DNA of 64,000 nt from a virus: the IMG/VR virus record IMGVR_UViG_3300042922_000827, positions 1 through 64,000 of that record. One strand, given 5' to 3'. Made by a program: the position numbers and the translations under genes. Of this stretch, positions 13,375 to 63,059 are shown piece after piece. The notes beneath the pieces were generated by a model that was not told the origin of the DNA, did not search any database, and saw nothing but the letters and a program-made list of their open reading frames with translations. Positions within the stretch are counted from its first letter, which is position 1, and each line of letters starts with the position of its first letter.

Positions 13375-15609
13375 CTAAACTCTAAAATTAAAATTTTGAT
13401 CCATCATCTTTTTATAATCTTCCTCATCATCAGAATTAAAATTAGTAAATACAGAATCCGGAATGCCTGTGTCTATACCTAAGTTAGATTCCAAATCAGA
13501 AACTGTACAATTATTTTGCCTAGCATATGCTTCTTTTACAGCTCTATTTTGTAGCATTAATCTAAGCATATTATTTTCTTTTTCCGACTCTTTCAGTTTC
13601 CAGTCACTTAACAGAATACCGGCTGCTGCTTTCATTTCAGCTAGTTCTTTATTTACTTCTTCTTGTTTTTCATTTCCTATATATTCTATTTCTTCTATAA
13701 TATTAGAAAATTTCTCCTCAAGACCATCTACAGTTTCATCAATATCAGCTTCAGTCTTAATTGGACTTTTTTCAATATTGAATAATTCTTTGAGGTTCTT
13801 GCCTTCGTACCATACATATAGAGCCATCAAATATGAAAATACTTGGTCATCATGGCTGGTATCTGAATGTTCTACCCTACCACTTCTTTTTACTTGCATA
13901 CCATTTAATTCTTTATGAAGTACTGGAGAAACAAATTTATCTTTATGGCGTTCCATTCTTTCTCTAAGTATTTCAATTAAAAGATCTCGAGAACCTTTAC
14001 TAGAATCAAATCCAAATACTTTTGTTTTTTGTTTCTTTCTTATTATTCGTATTCCATCATTTTGTTCTTCAATTACTCTATCTTTTATTTCATAATATAA
14101 ATTTTTCTTAACTTTTGACTCTATAAGTTTAGCAAGAACAGAAGCCCCGAATCCTCCGTTTCGCTCTACATTTATTACTACATTTGGCATCATAGTTGTA
14201 GTTATTTCATAAACAACCCTAGCCAAATCTATAGGAGATATATAGTTACATTTAAAATCTGCAAATACTTTAGTTGTTTTAGAATCTATAATAGTAATCG
14301 CAGAAGCATCCTGTTTATAACCTCCAGATACATCGACACCCATAATTGGTGGATACTTTGGAGTATAATCCGATTTGAGAGGTATTCTCTCATAAATATT
14401 TAAAGTATATTTACCAAGAATAAGCTTTTCATCAATACGTTCATGTACTAATCTTCCTACAGTTTCTAGATCTTCTTTATTGAATGGGGAATTCTCCGGA
14501 CTATCACTCCATTCGAGTAATATTTCACGGCGTATTTCGTTCCATTTCCATTCCATTTCTTTACATATATCTTCAAGCCATTTTTCATCTCTGCCAACTT
14601 GCTTATATGTAAATTTTACATAAACAAAATTAGATGAGCTATTAGCGTTAATTATACCCATAATTTGGTCATATCGTAAATCGTACCATCTCTCTGTAAA
14701 ATTTACAGCACCTTGTATCATACGATATGCCTCTTTGCCTTCTGGAGTTGTCAGTATACCAGGGGTAGTAGATAATAGTATACCAAATGGAGATCCAGCT
14801 TTTTTGGCATTTAAAGCTGCTGTTTTAAATGCAGGTATCGTATTGATAAAGATAATATCATTATATGGAATAAACGCCCACTCATCAGCCCATAGTAATG
14901 GAATTGTTCTACCGCGTAATAAGTTGGCTGCGGCTATAGCATTTCTAGCAGAAGGAGCAGTTTTAACTAAATTTTTATTAATAGGGTGCTGGATAGTTTC
15001 TACAGTTGATGGCATTTTGAGCTTTTTATCACCGCTTACACTATATGGTTGATCCATTCGTAAATATGACGGCAATGCGTCTCGTATATCTTTTAGACGC
15101 TGCAAATTCAATTTAGAATCTTTCATAGCTTTGTTTAAGAATGTTATTTCAGAATTTGAAGTGCCAAAATTATAAACATGTAAATACCAAACAACGGCAG
15201 AAATAGATTTACCTTGCTGACGAGGTAACTCGAAAAATATGTTTAAGTTATACATTAAGCAGAAGTTTAATGCCAAGTTGCCTCGATGAAGATGATATTT
15301 AGATCCGTTAGCTACGCCAGATGTAGGTATCCGCACCACTTCTCGCAAATAGTACCAATAGTTATATTTTACTTCTCTAGTTACTTTTGCTTTCATTGTA
15401 ATACTTAAATTTTTATCATGAGGGTCTATGCCAGCTAGATCTGGATCGAATAGAGTGAGCATAAATTTATTATTTTCTATACCAATTTTCTTAAGATAAT
15501 AATGCATCTCTAAGAAAGATCTATTTGTCGTAGACATTTGATGCAATACTGTAGGGATAGCAGCGTTTCTCTGTTGCGGTAAACGCTGCTGTGCATTTTG
15601 TGGTAACAT
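13375..15609 (-). CDS. terL: Terminase large subunit (DNA packaging ATPase-nuclease)
   Basis: The 744-residue product is a two-domain packaging motor. The ATPase domain has a Walker A PRQQGKS at residues 129-135 and a Walker B PLLWADEWAF with the adjacent acidic pair D242-E243. A SxTP-type coupling motif (LLSTTPG) is near 279-285. The nuclease domain begins with the MGVDVSGGY strand (D426) of the RNase H-like fold, with later conserved acidic residues including SHDDQVFSYLMA near 615. It translocates DNA through the portal and cuts genome units. The C-terminal 100 residues are acidic. It is a single-gene unit ending in a double hairpin. No intron or inteln interruption is visible. Confidence 0.93.
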   Translation of the reverse strand: MLPQNAQQRLPQQRNAAIPTVLHQMSTTNRSFLEMHYYLKKIGIENNKFMLTLFDPDLAGIDPHDKNLSITMKAKVTREVKYNYWYYLREVVRIPTSGVANGSKYHLHRGNLALNFCLMYNLNIFFELPRQQGKSISAVVWYLHVYNFGTSNSEITFLNKAMKDSKLNLQRLKDIRDALPSYLRMDQPYSVSGDKKLKMPSTVETIQHPINKNLVKTAPSARNAIAAANLLRGRTIPLLWADEWAFIPYNDIIFINTIPAFKTAALNAKKAGSPFGILLSTTPGILTTPEGKEAYRMIQGAVNFTERWYDLRYDQIMGIINANSSSNFVYVKFTYKQVGRDEKWLEDICKEMEWKWNEIRREILLEWSDSPENSPFNKEDLETVGRLVHERIDEKLILGKYTLNIYERIPLKSDYTPKYPPIMGVDVSGGYKQDASAITIIDSKTTKVFADFKCNYISPIDLARVVYEITTTMMPNVVINVERNGGFGASVLAKLIESKVKKNLYYEIKDRVIEEQNDGIRIIRKKQKTKVFGFDSSKGSRDLLIEILRERMERHKDKFVSPVLHKELNGMQVKRSGRVEHSDTSHDDQVFSYLMALYVWYEGKNLKELFNIEKSPIKTEADIDETVDGLEEKFSNIIEEIEYIGNEKQEEVNKELAEMKAAAGILLSDWKLKESEKENNMLRLMLQNRAVKEAYARQNNCTVSDLESNLGIDTGIPDSVFTNFNSDDEEDYKKMMDQNFNFRV

Positions 15610-15705
15610 TCTGTTTCACCCCTTTATTTGAGCTCTTATAATCTAGTTAACTCAATAAGAGGGCAAATAGAACATAACCCTATTTGTAATACCATATGCA
15701 TTTAA

Positions 15706-15717
15706 TTATATATTATA
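15706..15717 (+). promoter_or_regulatory. Phage promoter motif upstream of the histidine kinase
   Basis: An exact TTATATATTATA followed by TTAGTAAGAATAG, close to the extended consensus N3-GTGAGAATA. It is 44 bases before the kinase ATG at 15762. Confidence 0.65.
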
Positions 15718-15761
15718 TTAGTAAGAATAGAGAAGAATATAATAAAGGGAGATGCATTTCA

Positions 15762-17501
15762 ATGAAGTTTTGTATGAATTCTGTTAATAAGAAAGTTCTC
15801 ATTGCTGTATGTGTAGTATTTGTAATACCATATATTCTAAGTAGTTTTTATGTAACGTCTTTTATTCAAAATAAGGTAGAGGAGGATTATATAAATCTAT
15901 CTAATGAACAAATGGAAAGAGTTTATACTGCATTGTATTATAATGTAATTGAGCAAGCATCTCAAGCCATAGATGTCTTTTCAGTGAGGAAGGAAACTAA
16001 AAATCTAGTAATGCATATAGGGAATAAAATATACGATCCAAAAGAGCTAGATCCAGATTTATATAGCTATTTGCAAATATATAAAGATGCACGTAAAAAT
16101 TATATAACAGCTATTGCTATCGGAACGAACTTGGGTGGATATTTTGAATGTATTGGGGATAGAAAAGAAGATGATGACTATGATCCTCGAGTAAGACCTT
16201 GGTATATACCGGCAATTAACCAACCAAATCAAATAATAATATCAGATCCATATGTAAAAACAAATGGGCAGTTTGCTATTGCAGTTTCTAAAGCAATAAC
16301 TGGAGATAATAATGAGCCTATTGGTGTAATAGCTATAGGCTGGGATCTTGAAAATTTCCAGAAAGAAATAGAAAGTGTAAAAATAGGCATCAGCGGATAT
16401 ATTATTATATTAGATAAAAATAATAATATAATTACTAATCAAAAAGGAACCGATATAGGAAGACAGCAATTGGACGAACTTGATATGAACTCTGAAGCGA
16501 TTCAGAAAATAGCTGTAAATGATAAAATAAAATATATCAGAGTTAAGACCATACAGAATGAGTGGAAAATAATTTCTATTATTGATAATAATGAAATAGA
16601 CTCGCAAGTATCTATTATAACCAAGTCTATTAAAATAACTTATACCATGACTCTTATTATAATGGCTACAATATTTACAATAATTTATCTTAGATTTTCC
16701 ATTGGTATAAAGAAACTATTAGATGCTGCTTGTTCTATTATAAAGGGAAATGAGGAAGTTCATCTAGATATCGATAGAAATGACGAGATAGGCACAATCG
16801 CCAGAGCATTAAACAAAATGATATTGGAAGTAGAAAAAAGAAATAAGGAGCTATTCAGATTAAATGGATTAAATTTAGTTGGTCAGATGGCTGCTGGGAT
16901 TGCTCATGAAATACGCAACCCTATGACTACAGTTAAAGGATACCTTCAATATATTAGTGCAAAAGAACCAAAATATAAAGAACGGTTTGATATTATGCTT
17001 GATGAATTGGATAGAGCAAACTCAATAATCACAGAATTTCTTTCTCTAGCCAAAAATAAACTAGTTGATCTTAAACCACATAATTTAAATGATATAATAT
17101 TAAATATATCTCCTCTTCTAAAGTCAGATGCTTTAATGCAGAATAAAATAATATTATCACATTTAAATTCTATACCAAAATTAAAAGTAGATGAAAAAGA
17201 AATAAGGCAAATGATTTTAAATCTTGTACGTAACGGTTTAGAAGCTATGGAAGAAAAGAAGACTTTAACTATCGAAACTTTCTTTAAAGTAGATGAAGTA
17301 ATTCTCGCAATAAAAGACGAAGGAAGTGGAATCCCTACAGAAATATTAGATACCATAGGTATGCCTTTTGTTACAACCAAAGATACAGGAACTGGTCTTG
17401 GATTGGCTACGTGTTATAGTATCGCTAGTAGAAATAATGCAACTATTAAAATCAATACTAGTGAAAATGGAACAACATTCTTTATAAAATTTAAATGTTA
17501 A
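15762..17501 (+). CDS. Membrane sensor histidine kinase (dCache-HAMP-HisKA-HATPase)
   Basis: A complete 579-residue kinase; the ATG at 15762 has an AAAGGGAG site. One N-terminal membrane helix (about residues 10-30) precedes an extracytoplasmic dCache sensor with the typical YDPRVRPWY and SDPYVKTNGQFAIAVSKA motifs. A second membrane helix (about 285-305) is followed by HAMP. The H box GIAHEIRNPMTTVKGYLQ carries the phospho-acceptor His382. The N box (NLVRNGLEAM), G1 (KDEGSGIP) and F/G2 (PFVTTKDTGTGLGL) boxes are intact, so it should be active. The kinase domain resembles the sporulation phosphorelay kinases of Firmicutes. No response regulator is nearby, so it presumably phosphorylates a host partner. 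It is preceded by the phage promoter motif. Confidence 0.92.
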   Translation: MKFCMNSVNKKVLIAVCVVFVIPYILSSFYVTSFIQNKVEEDYINLSNEQMERVYTALYYNVIEQASQAIDVFSVRKETKNLVMHIGNKIYDPKELDPDLYSYLQIYKDARKNYITAIAIGTNLGGYFECIGDRKEDDDYDPRVRPWYIPAINQPNQIIISDPYVKTNGQFAIAVSKAITGDNNEPIGVIAIGWDLENFQKEIESVKIGISGYIIILDKNNNIITNQKGTDIGRQQLDELDMNSEAIQKIAVNDKIKYIRVKTIQNEWKIISIIDNNEIDSQVSIITKSIKITYTMTLIIMATIFTIIYLRFSIGIKKLLDAACSIIKGNEEVHLDIDRNDEIGTIARALNKMILEVEKRNKELFRLNGLNLVGQMAAGIAHEIRNPMTTVKGYLQYISAKEPKYKERFDIMLDELDRANSIITEFLSLAKNKLVDLKPHNLNDIILNISPLLKSDALMQNKIILSHLNSIPKLKVDEKEIRQMILNLVRNGLEAMEEKKTLTIETFFKVDEVILAIKDEGSGIPTEILDTIGMPFVTTKDTGTGLGLATCYSIASRNNATIKINTSENGTTFFIKFKC

Positions 17502-17569: not shown

Positions 17570-18214
17570 ATGTTTAACTTTATTTTTTTACACAAAGGTA
17601 ATTTAGAAGAAATGCTAGAACTACAAGACAAGATGGTAAAGGTACTTCCTAGAAAAGATTTATATTATGGCGATATGGATCTGATTAATAGGAGATTGGT
17701 TTGTCCAGATTCTGTTATTGGAATGCGAGATGGTGATAAATTAATAGCATTTCATGTTATGGATATACCAATTAGAGAAGAAAATCTTGGGGTCGACTTA
17801 GGATTTTCAGAAGAAGATTTATTACATGTTGGACAGATTGGTCCCATATGCATAGACCCAGAATATCAAGGTCGTGGTATAATGAAACAAATAATTAAGC
17901 CACATCTAGACATATTAAAAGAGACTGGATATCATCATGTATTAGCTACTGTTTCCCCATACAACTATGGGAGTATGAAATATGTTCTTACGCATGGGTT
18001 TTCTCTTATGAAGATTACTGAGAAGTATGAGGGGATGAGTAGAGCAATTGTTCACTTAAATCTTAATCAGGAACATAGATATAAGCATACCAAAGTTTTA
18101 GTACCAAATTATGCTATTAAAACTCAGCTTGATCTTATTTCCAATGGATATTGTGGTCATAGTTTAGAAAGAACAGAAAATGGATTTGATATAATTTACA
18201 GTATTAAAGAATAA
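17570..18214 (+). CDS. GNAT-family N-acetyltransferase
   Basis: A 214-residue protein with the GNAT core: the beta4-alpha3 acetyl-CoA loop IGPICIDPEYQGRGIMKQII at about residues 92-111, then an ATVSPYNYGSMKYVLTHGFS segment typical of motif B. The C-terminal 60 residues are an extra region of unknown role. It transfers acetyl groups to an unknown amine substrate, small molecule or protein. It follows the histidine kinase by 68 bases with a GGTGGAGGGG site and no terminator between, so the two form an operon ended by the hairpin at 18215. Confidence 0.85.
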   Translation: MFNFIFLHKGNLEEMLELQDKMVKVLPRKDLYYGDMDLINRRLVCPDSVIGMRDGDKLIAFHVMDIPIREENLGVDLGFSEEDLLHVGQIGPICIDPEYQGRGIMKQIIKPHLDILKETGYHHVLATVSPYNYGSMKYVLTHGFSLMKITEKYEGMSRAIVHLNLNQEHRYKHTKVLVPNYAIKTQLDLISNGYCGHSLERTENGFDIIYSIKE

Positions 18215-18249
18215 ATATAAGAGAGTGGCATAATGCCACTCTCTTATAT
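18215..18249. terminator. Bidirectional terminator
   Basis: A 16-bp stem with a TAA loop (ATATAAGAGAGTGGCA and its complement) between convergent genes. Confidence 0.87.
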
Positions 18250-18516: not shown

Positions 18517-19122
18517 TTATACTTTCTTTTTATTCGTTCTTTTTTTAATCGCACCACTAATCTTTGTCTCTTTTTTACGTGAAGCTCTAGATCTTTTATA
18601 TGAATAATTACTGGTCTCATGGTCATAATTCACCTCTTCTATATATCTTTTTTGATATGGTATAATTATCTTAGGTGGAGTAGCAACCACTCGTTCAATA
18701 CTTGAACGATCGGCTAATATCTTTTTAAAATCTCCATCTGATATGCATAAATTATAATCGCATATTTTAAAAAATGGAAAAGTATTTGATATTTTATCTA
18801 TATCTTTTCCATCTGGTTTCTCCACTTCTTTTAATTTTACAAGAATAGGTTTGTGCTTCATAAATTCAACTATACTCATAACGCTAGCCATGGGAATGGA
18901 TATATTTCCATAAAATATTTTGATAGATGGAATACTTTCCGTCCCATTCTGATGTGCGAATATTCCAGTTATTTGCGATAATCCGTACTGCGATATTATG
19001 ATACTTCCCTTTTCATGTATTAAATCATTAACTATGTCATCTTCAGTAAAAGGTTTATATTTAAATACTTCATAATATTTTCCTTCTGAGCCAGCCCTAA
19101 TAGCTCTACTATATGTGTCCAT
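18517..19122 (-). CDS. Unrecognised protein with basic tail, coupled to helicase
   Basis: A 201-residue protein whose start overlaps the end of the helicase gene by 14 bases, implying translational coupling. The body is alpha/beta. The last 40 residues are strongly basic (Lys/Arg-rich, with SYKRSRASRKK and KKRTNKKK), suggesting nucleic-acid binding. No Cys-based finger or catalytic motif was seen. A helicase accessory factor is a reasonable inference from coupling and charge, not from homology. Confidence 0.7.
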   Translation of the reverse strand: MDTYSRAIRAGSEGKYYEVFKYKPFTEDDIVNDLIHEKGSIIISQYGLSQITGIFAHQNGTESIPSIKIFYGNISIPMASVMSIVEFMKHKPILVKLKEVEKPDGKDIDKISNTFPFFKICDYNLCISDGDFKKILADRSSIERVVATPPKIIIPYQKRYIEEVNYDHETSNYSYKRSRASRKKETKISGAIKKRTNKKKV

Positions 19123-20698
19123 TTACTTTCACCCTCTCTACTATAATGCGTTCTACTACATTACGTTGAGCCATATGCATCTGATAGTCATAAATCTGTT
19201 GCATATGAGCATTGTATCTATCTGCAATAATTTTATTATATCTTTCGTCAAGTTCTCTATCACTAATGACTATGTCCGTACACTTAGTAGCATATTTAGA
19301 GAACACTGGCTGTTTAGCTTTGTAATAATTCTTAATAGATAGAAATCCTCTATCTACTGCTTCGATATAAAATGTATTCCTATCTCTAGTTCTGCCTAAA
19401 GATTGTCTAGCTGTAACTTCAGATTTAAAGGGTTCTGCTAAAACAATTGTTAAAGCCAATCCTGCTATATCTATTGCAGCTCCACATGATTTAGTAGTTG
19501 AAAGTATTATTCTTTTATTTAACTGCTCTTGCTTTTGATTCTTTGGAATTAGTGAATGGAAGACTCCTATCTGCCCTCTGTATTCTGGGAAATAATATTC
19601 CATCCAATTATACACTATTGTTATCGCGCTAGTAGTGCCTATATAAATTAAAGTTTTGCCGTTCTTTTTTCTGCTAATTTCCATAAGAATATAAATAAGC
19701 TTATAGAACTCAGGTTTAGTAACTACATAATTGGTATAATTATTTCTATCAAACCCATATACATTCTTGCAACCGTTAATATCAAATGCAGTTGGATGTG
19801 AGTTATAGCTAATACCAATATATTCACTTCTAGGATCTTCTTCTTCATCAAACAAGTCAATTGCAGGTACATTCTTAAAACTAGTCTGGTATATTATATT
19901 CTCTCGTTCATCACTTCTTGCTGGAGTTGCAGTGAGGTATAAAGTCTTCATTGTATTTGTAAAAAAATCTATTTTACAAATATTATCAAAATTAAGATGT
20001 GCTTCATCATATATCTTTATAGCTATACCTAGTATTATAAATAGCTCTCCCACTTTATGCCATCCATGTTTATCGCCATAACTCTTGATGGTATCATGGG
20101 ATGCTAATATAAATTTGTATTTGGTAATATCATTCATTCCATTTAGTAGCCTAGCAATGGAACCACTTCCAGATATAATGTAAATTTCATCTCTCTTTAT
20201 ATCGGTATATTGTAAAATTCGTTTCTTCCATTGATCTATCCAATCTAAAGATGAAGTAATCATCATAGTTAAAAGAGATGTATATGAAGCCATAGCTATA
20301 CTAAGATATGTTTTGCCAGCTCCAGGATTTAGATTTACAGATAGCTGAGATTTGGTTTTTGTGTAACTATATTCATCTTTTCCAAGAATAAATCTAATAG
20401 CTTCTTTTTGAACATCGTCTCTTGGTAAATGTTTGATTCTGATAGGTTCTACTTTTCTATATGAATCACATTTACTAACAAGATGAGCATTACAACCAAA
20501 TAGACCTTCAATAAAATACACATCTATTCCTCTAGGGAGATACATCCTTTTGTTTGCCTCGTCATAATAACATGCTTTAGGAAATCTTGTATGTCTTAAT
20601 TTATCATAAATACTAAAAAAGTTCTCTAATCTAGGACTATCCCCTAGATTATAATTATTGATTATTATCGCTGAATGTCTTACTTCTATTTTATGCAT
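19109..20698 (-). CDS. SF2 DNA helicase (UvsW-like)
   Basis: A 529-residue superfamily 2 helicase. Motif I is NPGAGKT at residues 124-130, motif II is DEAH at 231-234 in KIYDEAHLN, motif III is TATPAR near 255-260, and a motif VI-like QSLGRTRDR is near 432. The C-terminal RecA-like domain includes a TLIYIGTTSAI strand. In T4-like phages UvsW uses such a core to remodel recombination and replication intermediates; that role is assumed here by resemblance. It overlaps the downstream 18517 gene. Confidence 0.87.
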   Translation of the reverse strand: MHKIEVRHSAIIINNYNLGDSPRLENFFSIYDKLRHTRFPKACYYDEANKRMYLPRGIDVYFIEGLFGCNAHLVSKCDSYRKVEPIRIKHLPRDDVQKEAIRFILGKDEYSYTKTKSQLSVNLNPGAGKTYLSIAMASYTSLLTMMITSSLDWIDQWKKRILQYTDIKRDEIYIISGSGSIARLLNGMNDITKYKFILASHDTIKSYGDKHGWHKVGELFIILGIAIKIYDEAHLNFDNICKIDFFTNTMKTLYLTATPARSDERENIIYQTSFKNVPAIDLFDEEEDPRSEYIGISYNSHPTAFDINGCKNVYGFDRNNYTNYVVTKPEFYKLIYILMEISRKKNGKTLIYIGTTSAITIVYNWMEYYFPEYRGQIGVFHSLIPKNQKQEQLNKRIILSTTKSCGAAIDIAGLALTIVLAEPFKSEVTARQSLGRTRDRNTFYIEAVDRGFLSIKNYYKAKQPVFSKYATKCTDIVISDRELDERYNKIIADRYNAHMQQIYDYQMHMAQRNVVERIIVERVKVNGHI

Positions 20699-24043: not shown

Positions 24044-24472
24044 TTATCTACCAATAGGACGTGTGAATGCATTTGGAGTAAGTTTAAGCAAACTCTTTTG
24101 AGCAACAACAGCATCTTTCTTAACGCGAGTGGCATACTTGTTCATAATTTTGCCAATTAGATCGCGTTCTTTAATACGATTTTTGCGTAGAGCTTCCCAG
24201 TTAGCATCACCGTCTTCTTTTGCTTTTTGAAAAGCGGCAATTTTAACACGACGAGTTAAATCATCCATTTTAGATAAACGAACAATCGTTTTCTTTCCGA
24301 TAACTCCAGCTTCTTCTAAAGCCTTCACTTCATCAGAACCAAGATATTCAGTTCTTTGATCTTCAGTCATCATAGCAACTTCTTGTTCAAAGATTTTTTC
24401 CATTAGGGCATTCTGATCTGTTACTCCAGATTCTTCATTTAACGCAGATGTTTCTTCAATAAAAAATGGCAT
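24044..24472 (-). CDS. Unrecognised small basic-helical protein
   Basis: A 142-residue protein; the ATG at 24472 has AAGGGGGT at the correct distance. The N-terminus is acidic (a TSALNEESGVTD segment) and the rest is helical with many Lys/Arg, ending in NAFTRPIGR. It is alone on its transcript, ended by the hairpin at 24008. No family recognised; a virion core or assembly protein is possible. Confidence 0.66.
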   Translation of the reverse strand: MPFFIEETSALNEESGVTDQNALMEKIFEQEVAMMTEDQRTEYLGSDEVKALEEAGVIGKKTIVRLSKMDDLTRRVKIAAFQKAKEDGDANWEALRKNRIKERDLIGKIMNKYATRVKKDAVVAQKSLLKLTPNAFTRPIGR

Positions 24473-24647
24473 TTTAAAAAACCCCCTTAATATATTCTTG
24501 TTTATATACAGCGCCCACATTAGACACGCTATAGATTATTTAGATGTTTTATAATTATAAACATATTGAATCATTGAATATAAAACTTTAATACCCATCT
24601 TACATTCATATAATGATCTAAATACATTGATAAAGGGGTAATTAGAG

Positions 24648-33063: not shown

Positions 33064-33912
33064 TTATAATTTAAAACAAAAATTCATTACTTCATTTTGA
33101 ATATGACGTTCTACTGGAACTACGATTCTATCATAATTCTTATCAACTAAAGTAACAGATTTGCCATCTTCTGATAATAGAATGCTTTCATAGAAAGTAT
33201 CAAAATTATTAACGATGGTATTAAGATTAGCAGACTCTGCCATAATATAATCTCTTACAGATGCGTTAGTGATAGGAGTTATAATTTGGAATCCTTCTTC
33301 AACTAATTGAATATTGCCATGTTCTTCTACCATCTTAGGAATATAGATATATTTATTAGCCTGCGCGGAAGCTCCCTCGCTAATAATTTTAGTAGTATAT
33401 GCTTTAGGATGTGATGGGTAATAAACACGGTCATATGTAACTATCTTAAGATTACGCACATATGCTTTACCTGCATTTTGTATAATAGTACCTAATGCTC
33501 TAAGAGAAAATGATGGTTTAGCCCCATCTTTAAGATCATCGTTAAATGATCTTCCTAAATCATTATTAGTTCCACGGAAGTTTGCTTTTACAAGATTGCC
33601 TTCCATCCACAACTTAGTATACCAAACTTGTTCCATGAATGGGTCGACTTTCTGTTGTCTTGCTAAGTCATTAGCCGATGGATGACCAGCTTCACCTTTA
33701 AAATTTCCACTAGTTACCATTTCTTGCTGCTTAGCACAATGAATTTCTTTATATAGATCATCATGGGCATAGCATCGTTTATTGCGATTTTCTTCCTCGG
33801 CTTCTTGAATTATACCTTCGGCAATAACGAAATCTCTGTTTTGATTCACTATATTAAATTCTACGTCTTTAGCAGACGATTCACATATAATATATGCTAA
33901 CGTAGTATTCAT
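33064..33912 (-). CDS. Prohead maturation protease
   Basis: A 282-residue protein with the phage prohead protease pattern of T4 gp21/herpesvirus-like serine peptidases. The His motif is FKGEAGHPSANDLARQQ with His77, and the Ser motif is AKPSFSLRALG with Ser134 or Ser136. The enzyme sits in the immature capsid and trims scaffold and capsid proteins before packaging. The gene has a AAAGGAGG site and no TTATATATTATA motif, consistent with late expression. Confidence 0.85.
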   Translation of the reverse strand: MNTTLAYIICESSAKDVEFNIVNQNRDFVIAEGIIQEAEEENRNKRCYAHDDLYKEIHCAKQQEMVTSGNFKGEAGHPSANDLARQQKVDPFMEQVWYTKLWMEGNLVKANFRGTNNDLGRSFNDDLKDGAKPSFSLRALGTIIQNAGKAYVRNLKIVTYDRVYYPSHPKAYTTKIISEGASAQANKYIYIPKMVEEHGNIQLVEEGFQIITPITNASVRDYIMAESANLNTIVNNFDTFYESILLSEDGKSVTLVDKNYDRIVVPVERHIQNEVMNFCFKL

Positions 33913-60857: not shown

Positions 60858-63059
60858 ATGAAAAAATATAATTGCCCATATTGTGGATATAGAGGTTCTA
60901 GGGAAGATTTGATATCTCATATAGAAGAAGAGCATGATGAAATGATACCAGAAAATTTTACTGCGGCTAGAGTAGTATTTAATTTAGTTAATAAAAAAGA
61001 TCATGGAGTGTGTGTTGTTTGTAAAAGAGAAACTGAATGGAATGAAAATGCTAGTAAATATGATAGAATGTGCGGACGCAAAGCTTGTTCAGATGCTTTG
61101 AGAAAAATAGCAGTAACTAATCATATCAAAGTATATAATAAACCTACTCTTCTTGGAGATGATGAACATCAAGAAAAAATGCTAGCCAATAGAGGTATAT
61201 CCGGAAAGTATAGATTTACAGACGGAGGATATGTAGTTTATACTGGATCTTATGAAAAGAAGGCACTGGAGTTTATAGATAAAGTGCTAGGATTTAAATC
61301 ATGGGATATACTTTGCCCAGGTCCAGTATTTGAATATGAATATGAAGGTAAAACTCATAAGTGGATTACTGATATGCTTCTTATTCCGTTTAATCTAATT
61401 ATAGAAGTTAAGGATGGTGGAAGCAATCCTAATAATCGTACTATGACTTCATATAGAGAAAAGCAAGTGGCTAAAGAACAAATGATTACATCTCTTGGTA
61501 AATTTAATTATCTTAGATTGACAGATAACAACTTTGCTCAACTATTAGGAACAATTGCTGAACTCAAAGCTCAAATGATTGACGATAGTGAAGATAATAA
61601 GAAAGTAGTTATCAATATAAATGAAGAAGTAGAAGCTTTAAATGAAGAATCTTCAAAAGATATAACAAAGTTTAAAGCTATGATTCTAAAAAAAGTAAAC
61701 GCCAATTCTAAATTTAAAAATTTTATAAAAGGCAAATCAAAAGATGATATAAAAAAAATAAATGATAAGATATACAACTCATCAGCTAAAATATTACGCG
61801 AAGTCGCTAGATTGACATTCAATACAAAGCATCTTTCGGAAAAATTATTTTGGGCTGTTGCTATAGGATATGTATTATCAATGTTTGGCATAATCGCATC
61901 GTCGGCTATAATGTTTGGAACTGCCATTGGAGTAGACTATGCTGTAGACGCAAGGTATAATAAAAAGAACGAATCTACTGAATTAGAATCGGAGATTATA
62001 GATGAAATGTCTATAAGTGTGCCATTGAATAAAGATCATATACAAAAAGGGAATAAGTCTTTATTCTCCTTTAAAAAAGTTTCTATAACTGATAATGATA
62101 TTAATAAATATAAACAAGATATGAAATCATTATCACATATAAGAACAGAAGATGGGTACAAAGGAACCATATTCTTAGATAAAAACAATCCAGTTTGCTA
62201 TGTAAATGTAAACTCTAATAATGGAATGATACAGGCACTGGAGATATCTAAAGACTATCAGGGATATGGATTATCATCGCAATTATTGAAATATGCTGTA
62301 TCTACACTAAAAGCAACATCATTAACGGTAAATAAAAAAAATGAAGTTGCAATAAACGTGTATAAAAAGCAAGGCTTTAAACAAGTTAAAGCTACCGATA
62401 ATATGATAACTATGTCTATAGATGAGAGTATGGGTCTTGCAGGAATTGGCGGAATGCCAGCACCTTCTAATCAATTCATTACTCAATTTGGTCCTAGATC
62501 TACTTTCTCAGATGATACAGTAGAAGGGTATGCCATTCACAACGATATCATTACAGATAAGATACTATTAGTAGATAAGAATGGTAATCTTGCGGTTAAA
62601 GAATCTTCTTTCTTAGAAGGAAGAAAGATAAGAATATTTAAATACATTGGCGAGAATGTGGATGAATATTACAAGATATTAAAATCTGCAAAGAAAAATA
62701 AAAAAGCATATAGAGAATATCTATATGAAGCGCTAACTGGGAAAAGGCTATTATCAGACGATCAGATAATCTGTGATGAATGCTTCGAAGAAATATCCCC
62801 AGTTAAAATCTTTGCAGAATACAACTCAGCCGCTCAAACAATTGTAGATCAGTATAAAGAAATAATTGGAGAAGAAATAGTTAGATTTCCACTAATGAAT
62901 GAAAAATCTATATCTGAAGCTTCTAAGATTACAACTGGCAATATTCATATTAATATATTTGAAAATATGAACGGATACTTTGCAGAAAATGCTATAACTC
63001 GCCAAAGGACTGCATATTATAAGGATATAAAAGATATTCAAATTGAGGTGATATTGTAA
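60858..63059 (+). CDS. Zinc-finger, nuclease-like, membrane-spanning, GNAT fusion protein
   Basis: A 733-residue multidomain protein with AAAAGGAGG upstream. A C2H2 finger (Cys6, Cys9, His21, His26) opens it, and a second Cys group (CVVCKRE, MCGRKACSD) follows. Residues 125-190 look like a PD-(D/E)xK nuclease: YTGSYEKKALEFIDKVLGF, then HKWITDMLLIPFNLIIEVKDG with Asp172 and the Glu183-Lys185 pair. A hydrophobic helix pair lies near 340-375. Residues 405-530 resemble GNAT (LEISKDYQGYGLSSQLLKYA, then YKKQGFKQVK). The C-terminal 190 residues are unrecognised and contain a CDECFEEI pair. Possibly a virion or injected protein. Confidence 0.72.
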   Translation: MKKYNCPYCGYRGSREDLISHIEEEHDEMIPENFTAARVVFNLVNKKDHGVCVVCKRETEWNENASKYDRMCGRKACSDALRKIAVTNHIKVYNKPTLLGDDEHQEKMLANRGISGKYRFTDGGYVVYTGSYEKKALEFIDKVLGFKSWDILCPGPVFEYEYEGKTHKWITDMLLIPFNLIIEVKDGGSNPNNRTMTSYREKQVAKEQMITSLGKFNYLRLTDNNFAQLLGTIAELKAQMIDDSEDNKKVVININEEVEALNEESSKDITKFKAMILKKVNANSKFKNFIKGKSKDDIKKINDKIYNSSAKILREVARLTFNTKHLSEKLFWAVAIGYVLSMFGIIASSAIMFGTAIGVDYAVDARYNKKNESTELESEIIDEMSISVPLNKDHIQKGNKSLFSFKKVSITDNDINKYKQDMKSLSHIRTEDGYKGTIFLDKNNPVCYVNVNSNNGMIQALEISKDYQGYGLSSQLLKYAVSTLKATSLTVNKKNEVAINVYKKQGFKQVKATDNMITMSIDESMGLAGIGGMPAPSNQFITQFGPRSTFSDDTVEGYAIHNDIITDKILLVDKNGNLAVKESSFLEGRKIRIFKYIGENVDEYYKILKSAKKNKKAYREYLYEALTGKRLLSDDQIICDECFEEISPVKIFAEYNSAAQTIVDQYKEIIGEEIVRFPLMNEKSISEASKITTGNIHINIFENMNGYFAENAITRQRTAYYKDIKDIQIEVIL

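Follow-up and report, generated by a model that had tools for sequence, protein, structure and literature searches.

The 64,000-nucleotide stretch of DNA analysed here (the window; positions 1-64000 of the 87,773-base virus record IMGVR_UViG_3300042922_000827) encodes a transmembrane sensor histidine kinase of 579 amino acids (15762..17501, + strand), located between the terminase large subunit (TerL) and helicase genes of a putative jumbo phage. The kinase gene is under strong purifying selection and is preceded by a sequence resembling the promoters used by the virion RNA polymerase of phage AR9. We consider it somewhat better than an even bet (roughly 0.55) that the gene product is a functional, early phage membrane histidine kinase (or phosphatase), which would act in trans on a response regulator of the host. 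As infection begins, such an enzyme may alter a decision taken by host signalling, possibly that to form spores.

Domain architecture of the kinase

The encoded protein consists of a transmembrane (TM) segment (residues ~8-35), a dCache_1 sensor domain (~36-290), a second TM segment (~290-316), and HAMP, HisKA and HATPase_c domains. All four Pfam matches (HATPase_c 1.6e-17, HisKA 8e-14, dCache_1 3.1e-15, HAMP 1.3e-5) exceed the curated cut-offs. The H box (HEIRNP) contains the phospho-accepting histidine H382, and the N (NLVRNGLEA, 487-495), G1 (DEGSGI, 519-524), F (PFVTTK, 535-540) and G2 (GTGLGL, 543-548) boxes are all present. An earlier note on this DNA, made from the sequence alone, had described a complete kinase with intact catalytic boxes and an external dCache sensor; the domain matches, the conserved boxes and the two hydrophobic segments that bracket the sensor bear out both parts of this description. 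Furthermore, with the HisKA histidine, the full set of boxes (N, G1, F, G2), a pair of TM segments and no fused receiver, the protein has the features of an orthodox transmembrane histidine kinase. Nearly the full length of the protein is covered by the PHROG family phrog_857 (4.5e-40), which represents a possible precedent. An AlphaFold2 model of the kinase, built without homologues, was discarded (mean pLDDT 36).

A ribosome-binding site (AAAGGGAG; 15744..15751, +) is located ahead of the ATG at 15762. The longer open reading frame (ORF) starting at 15696 is not conserved, since L002, the sister contig, differs by one base and thereby loses the reading frame ahead of this ATG. Together, the ribosome-binding site and the broken upstream frame identify 15762 as the correct start of the kinase.

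Promoter and transcription unit

The sequence TTATATATTATA at 15706-15717, 44 bases ahead of the kinase ATG, forms the core of a predicted early (virion RNA polymerase) promoter (15706..15723, +), with the predicted start at an A (15723). The window contains ten exact copies of TTATATATTATA, whereas shuffled sequences give an expectation of 0.42 (0/100 shuffles reached 10), and nearly all of the copies sit directly upstream of genes. Transcription from the experimentally mapped early promoters of AR9 relies on the polymerase that the virion injects, and their consensus is AAATATATATTAT-N6-G(+1) (PMC5312081). In the phage analysed here, TATATATTAT-N6-G fits 12 sites other than the kinase promoter, all with G at +1. 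The kinase promoter matches the core and spacing of TATATATTAT-N6 exactly, but carries A at +1, and it is conserved in L002 with this A included. While the G-to-A change could weaken the promoter, early activity is likely, although not certain, because the early promoter of AR9 g044 also deviates at the start point yet is active, whereas the virion polymerase of AR9 can be sensitive to promoter changes (PMC5312081). Thus, the phage promoter that had been proposed 44 bases upstream of the kinase agrees with both the enrichment of TTATATATTATA and the AR9 early core, with the A at +1 as a correction.

The AR9 late-promoter consensus AACA-N6-TA is also matched ahead of the early promoter (15671..15682, +; position -91 relative to the gene), and this copy is shared with L002. 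This short motif is a weak candidate for a second promoter, which would add late, i.e. continuous, expression of the kinase unit. The use of late promoters in AR9 needs uracil-containing DNA. Across the phage, AACA-N6-TA is approximately threefold enriched upstream of genes (13 sense matches versus 4.2 +/- 2.1 in shuffled sequences) and is found, for example, upstream of the late genes at 24044-24520 (-), 33064-33912 (-) and 76765-77898 (-). This enrichment ahead of genes suggests that the promoter specificity of the nvRNAP is also common to AR9 and the phage.

The kinase gene is followed by a gene encoding a GNAT-family acetyltransferase of 214 amino acids (17570..18214, +; Pfam Acetyltransf_1, 3e-8), with which it is presumably co-transcribed. 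The 68-base gap between the two genes contains no early promoter core, and a predicted intrinsic terminator with a 16-pair stem and a T-rich tail (18215..18249, +) closes the unit; its stem-loop is kept in the sister contig L116 with one change in the stem. Based on these features and the gene order, we predict a single, self-contained early unit consisting of early promoter, kinase, GNAT and terminator, running opposite to the late genes and to the genes for TerL and the helicase.

The region also contains a 17-base direct repeat (TATTTGTAATACCATAT; 15681-15697 and 15817-15833, 136 bases apart), of which the first copy precedes the kinase promoter and the second lies within the first TM segment of the kinase. 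The repeat is largely kept in L002, and only one other distinct repeat of comparable length and spacing exists across the 87.8 kb of the record.

Phage affiliation and genomic setting

TerL (13375..15609, -), the divergent neighbour of the kinase unit, is 38% identical to its counterparts in the Bacillus jumbo phages BpSp and Goe21 and ~33% identical to those of Staphylococcus jumbo phages, and shares 97% (L002), 59% (L004) and 52% (L005, L006, L008) identity with its counterparts in other contigs. The helicase gene (19109..20698, -) flanks the kinase unit on the side away from TerL. In addition, the phage encodes a beta subunit of a multisubunit-type RNA polymerase (PHROG 3015) and a divergent family B DNA polymerase (Pfam). 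Based on TerL, both polymerases and the AR9-type early promoters, we assign the record to a fragment of an AR9/PBS1-like jumbo phage, an assignment by gene content and promoters for a record of 87.8 kb as compared with a jumbo genome size of >200 kb. AR9-like genomes are ~250 kb in size.

No tRNA was found in the window. A joint scan of its 55 ORFs identified a GroEL-like chaperonin, two ankyrin-repeat proteins and an F5/8 type C domain protein. The ORF at 60858-63059 encodes an N-terminal PHROG endonuclease domain with an acetyltransferase domain beyond it, representing a second GNAT in the phage.

Affinity of the kinase core and candidate targets

The nearest core in the searched collections belongs to a kinase of Paenibacillus cellulosilyticus (L016), with 44% identity over the HisKA/HATPase core and a front end composed of five TM segments (5TM) and a PAS domain. 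The earlier note had called for a phylogeny of the HisKA domain; in a maximum-likelihood tree, the phage core and the Paenibacillus kinase are sisters (support 98/98) within a Bacillota group of modest support (89/69). This group includes a B. velezensis kinase identified by synteny, the gene of which lies between those for an AbrB-family protein and a gamma-glutamylcyclotransferase, near mreBH and ktrC, surroundings that we take to be the known kinC neighbourhood, and the kinase presumably to be KinC. The annotated Bacillota members of the tree are orphans without an adjacent regulator, while the outgroups (ZraS, AtoS and Sinorhizobium) adjoin their regulators, and the hybrid kinases of other large viral contigs branch separately. 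The tree comparators were drawn from a plasmid collection rather than from chromosomal Bacillota kinases such as B. subtilis KinA-E. The donor likewise rests on these comparators, since a search of genome contigs with a single-protein query returned one distant cyanobacterial match only.

The clustering of the phage core with Bacillota orphan kinases is the grouping expected of the Spo0 orphan (KinA-E) type. Family models do not separate the candidates (KinD 150, AtoS 166 and ZraS 154 bits), and the core fails the KinD equivalog model NF053867, scoring 150.2 versus 775 bits over residues 363-575 only. Of the earlier suggestion of a sporulation-kinase-like core, the resemblance is thus real and is carried by the tree, but it does not amount to membership.

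Bacillota orphan kinases (KinA-E) mostly feed Spo0F or Spo0A. As the core is of this type, the Spo0 phosphorelay (Spo0F or Spo0A) is tentatively the likeliest single target. Nearly as likely, the kinase would act on another two-component regulator of the host, responding to nutrients or to envelope or membrane stress, and unrelated to sporulation. In line with this alternative, the AtoS and ZraS models score as high as that of KinD, the best solved core structures are those of ZraS, ThkA and KinB, and the sensor resembles those of nutrient chemoreceptors; however, the tree places the core with the orphan Bacillota kinases, the usual partners of Spo0F and Spo0A, and not with ZraS or AtoS. No receiver domain was identified in the 87.8-kb record, and the phage scans that were run revealed neither a response regulator nor another gene of sporulation. 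The partner would therefore be encoded by the host or on unsequenced phage DNA; as the record is a fragment relative to the ~250 kb of related genomes, a phage-borne regulator may be missing from it.

The dCache sensor

The best solved relatives of the sensor are dCache domains from chemoreceptors and from one diguanylate cyclase (6mni, 1e-13; 7w0w; 6iop; 7k5n). In PctA, the amino acid-binding dCache_1AA motif comprises Y121, R126, W128, Y129, Y144 and D173, and the amino group of the ligand is held by an aspartate (D173 in PctA, D235 in PctD) (PMC10104139, PMC11245519). The phage sensor keeps five of the motif positions as Y140, R145, W147, Y148 and Y164 (Y-R-W-Y-Y), and the aspartate position aligns with G193 in every comparison and in both phage copies. 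With glycine in place of PctA D173 and PctD D235, the sensor falls outside the definitions of both the amino acid (dCache_1AA) and the amine (dCache_1AM) sensors. A complete dCache_1AA motif with D195 as the aspartate was rejected, as all alignments put G193 at this position. Since the amine-binding aspartate is replaced, we favour a ligand that lacks an amino group, probably a carboxylate, over an amino acid.

The same substitution would be compatible with a decoy that pairs with host kinases or drains phosphate and thereby lowers host signalling without responding to a ligand. We regard this as improbable because, between the two phage genotypes, purifying selection is as strong on the sensor region (residues 1-316) as on the core (dN/dS 0.052 versus 0.051), a constraint needless for a mere decoy, and because the five tyrosine, arginine and tryptophan positions are retained. 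A ligand-responsive kinase acting on a host regulator is preferred.

Conservation and selection

The contig IMGVR_UViG_3300042923_001382 contains the same junction of TerL, promoter and kinase, with 97% identity of the kinase over 441 amino acids. The other side of the locus is found in contig 3300042923_000651 from the same metagenome, in which an orthologue of the GNAT (85% identity) occupies the same place and the helicase is 98% identical. Over the 441 kinase codons, the two phage genotypes differ by 59 synonymous and 14 non-synonymous changes, corresponding to a dN/dS of 0.052, close to that of TerL (0.036). A dN/dS value for a 370-amino-acid neighbour was an alignment artefact caused by unaligned indels and was dropped.

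All seven of the more distant relatives examined (four IMG/VR records, AR9, BpSp and SA1) lack a HisKA domain. In L004, TerL and the helicase are close together with only small ORFs and no kinase between them, and the backbone order TerL-helicase-RNA polymerase occurs in relatives without the kinase. Taken together, the relatives without HisKA and the arrangement in L004 indicate that the kinase unit was acquired in the phage lineage studied here. Although these absences would also be seen with an assembly chimera or with a host segment that inserted recently or is carried passively, such an origin is highly improbable in view of the same junction in an independent contig diverged by dS 0.26-0.40, the purifying selection, the phage promoter and the matching G+C content (29% against 31%). 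A chimera or contaminant had been named as one outcome that would undo the earlier interpretation; it is rejected, as the junction recurs in the diverged L002, and selection and promoter together uphold the view that the kinase is not a passive insert.

Proposed mechanism and implications

The complete kinase is encoded behind an early-type promoter together with the GNAT and a terminator, and is selected in two genotypes. As in AR9, the injected virion RNA polymerase would transcribe the gene independently of the host polymerase. The kinase would then insert into the host membrane, where the dCache domain would read a small extracellular ligand, and the Bacillota orphan-type DHp/CA core would donate phosphate to, or take it from, a host response regulator. 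With Spo0F or Spo0A as the target, the phage would set the sporulation commitment of the host early in infection. A net phosphatase would block sporulation and keep the cell productive, and a kinase would drive sporulation for entrapment in spores; the data choose neither direction. Feeding of the phosphorelay, with a bias in sporulation or latency in spores as suggested in the earlier note, is thus retained as a hypothesis. The most specific version, in which a lytic jumbo phage installs a ligand-gated kinase atop the Spo0 phosphorelay within minutes via its injected RNA polymerase, is doubtful.

Known phage control of host dormancy involves sigma factors or truncated regulators acting late. 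If expressed early, an intact and selected membrane kinase would represent control at the sensory input, and would imply that phages of the AR9 type use their own polymerase to express signalling cargo of host type. If Spo0 is indeed the target, a phage sensor that monitors the surroundings of the infected cell would determine whether that cell sporulates. The question of whether virulent phages sense an external signal to decide the fate of the host thereby becomes testable.

Comparison with known systems

Among cellular kinases, the closest counterparts are the Bacillota orphan sporulation kinases, of which L016 is the nearest. The phage kinase shares with L016 the core, the membrane-bound state and the lack of an adjacent response regulator, but combines dCache and HAMP domains where L016 has 5TM and PAS, and is phage-borne and located behind a phage early promoter. 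KinD has an external dCache sensor and the same TM-dCache-TM-kinase plan, and its model matches the phage core (6e-44). However, this match covers the core only, and the phage kinase carries a HAMP domain, in contrast to the distinct linker of KinD.

Phage-borne histidine kinases as such are already known. The Clostridioides difficile phage phiCDHM1 carries an AgrC histidine kinase, likewise a host-type membrane kinase, which is transcribed by its phage (PMC3901668). In contrast to the lone dCache kinase of a jumbo phage with its own polymerases, AgrC is encoded by a temperate phage next to agrB and agrD and has a quorum-sensing HATPase of another family (PMC3901668). Within IMG/VR, one two-pattern scan identified 86 stretches encoding histidine kinases, several of them on contigs of >147 kb, and those read were mostly soluble PAS hybrids with receivers. 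As these hybrids are located on large, putatively viral contigs, the gene class recurs, although they differ from the phage kinase in their PAS-type architecture, C-terminal receiver and HDFNN-type H box, and mostly lack an external sensor. The earlier note had considered a membrane-bound host-signal sensor very unusual in a phage; the 86 stretches weaken this view, although soluble hybrids predominate among those read. Hybrid kinases with receivers were found on IMG/VR contigs of 250-500 kb (L035, L038/L043, L062, L078, L094 and L104), and the L035 record also holds a distant homologue (25-42%) of the phage TerL.

Kinase matches in phage collections were not accepted as precedent, since those opened were bacterial WGS contigs labelled as phage, or unverified. 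The phage-filed contigs AFYI01000006 and CAKLQH020000023, which represent Salmonella zraSR and Acinetobacter atoSC regions, would mislead naive searches. The sasA gene of Microcystis phage MaAM05 lies among rnhC, coaE and aspS and was not relied on. Histidine kinases go unmentioned in a recent jumbo-phage review (PMC13282480), as do kinases in two reports on phage-encoded sporulation genes (PMC9429907, PMC10294663). As far as could be found, a stand-alone, external-sensor kinase of the sporulation-kinase type behind a virion-polymerase promoter is undescribed. That phages carry sporulation sigma factors, as the earlier note had stated, is documented in the latter two reports, which also describe phage-encoded truncated Spo0A (PMC9429907, PMC10294663). 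These genes and the kinase have a putative strategy in common, in which the control of host dormancy is targeted by a phage gene; the known examples act downstream on transcription, whereas the kinase would act at the sensory input.
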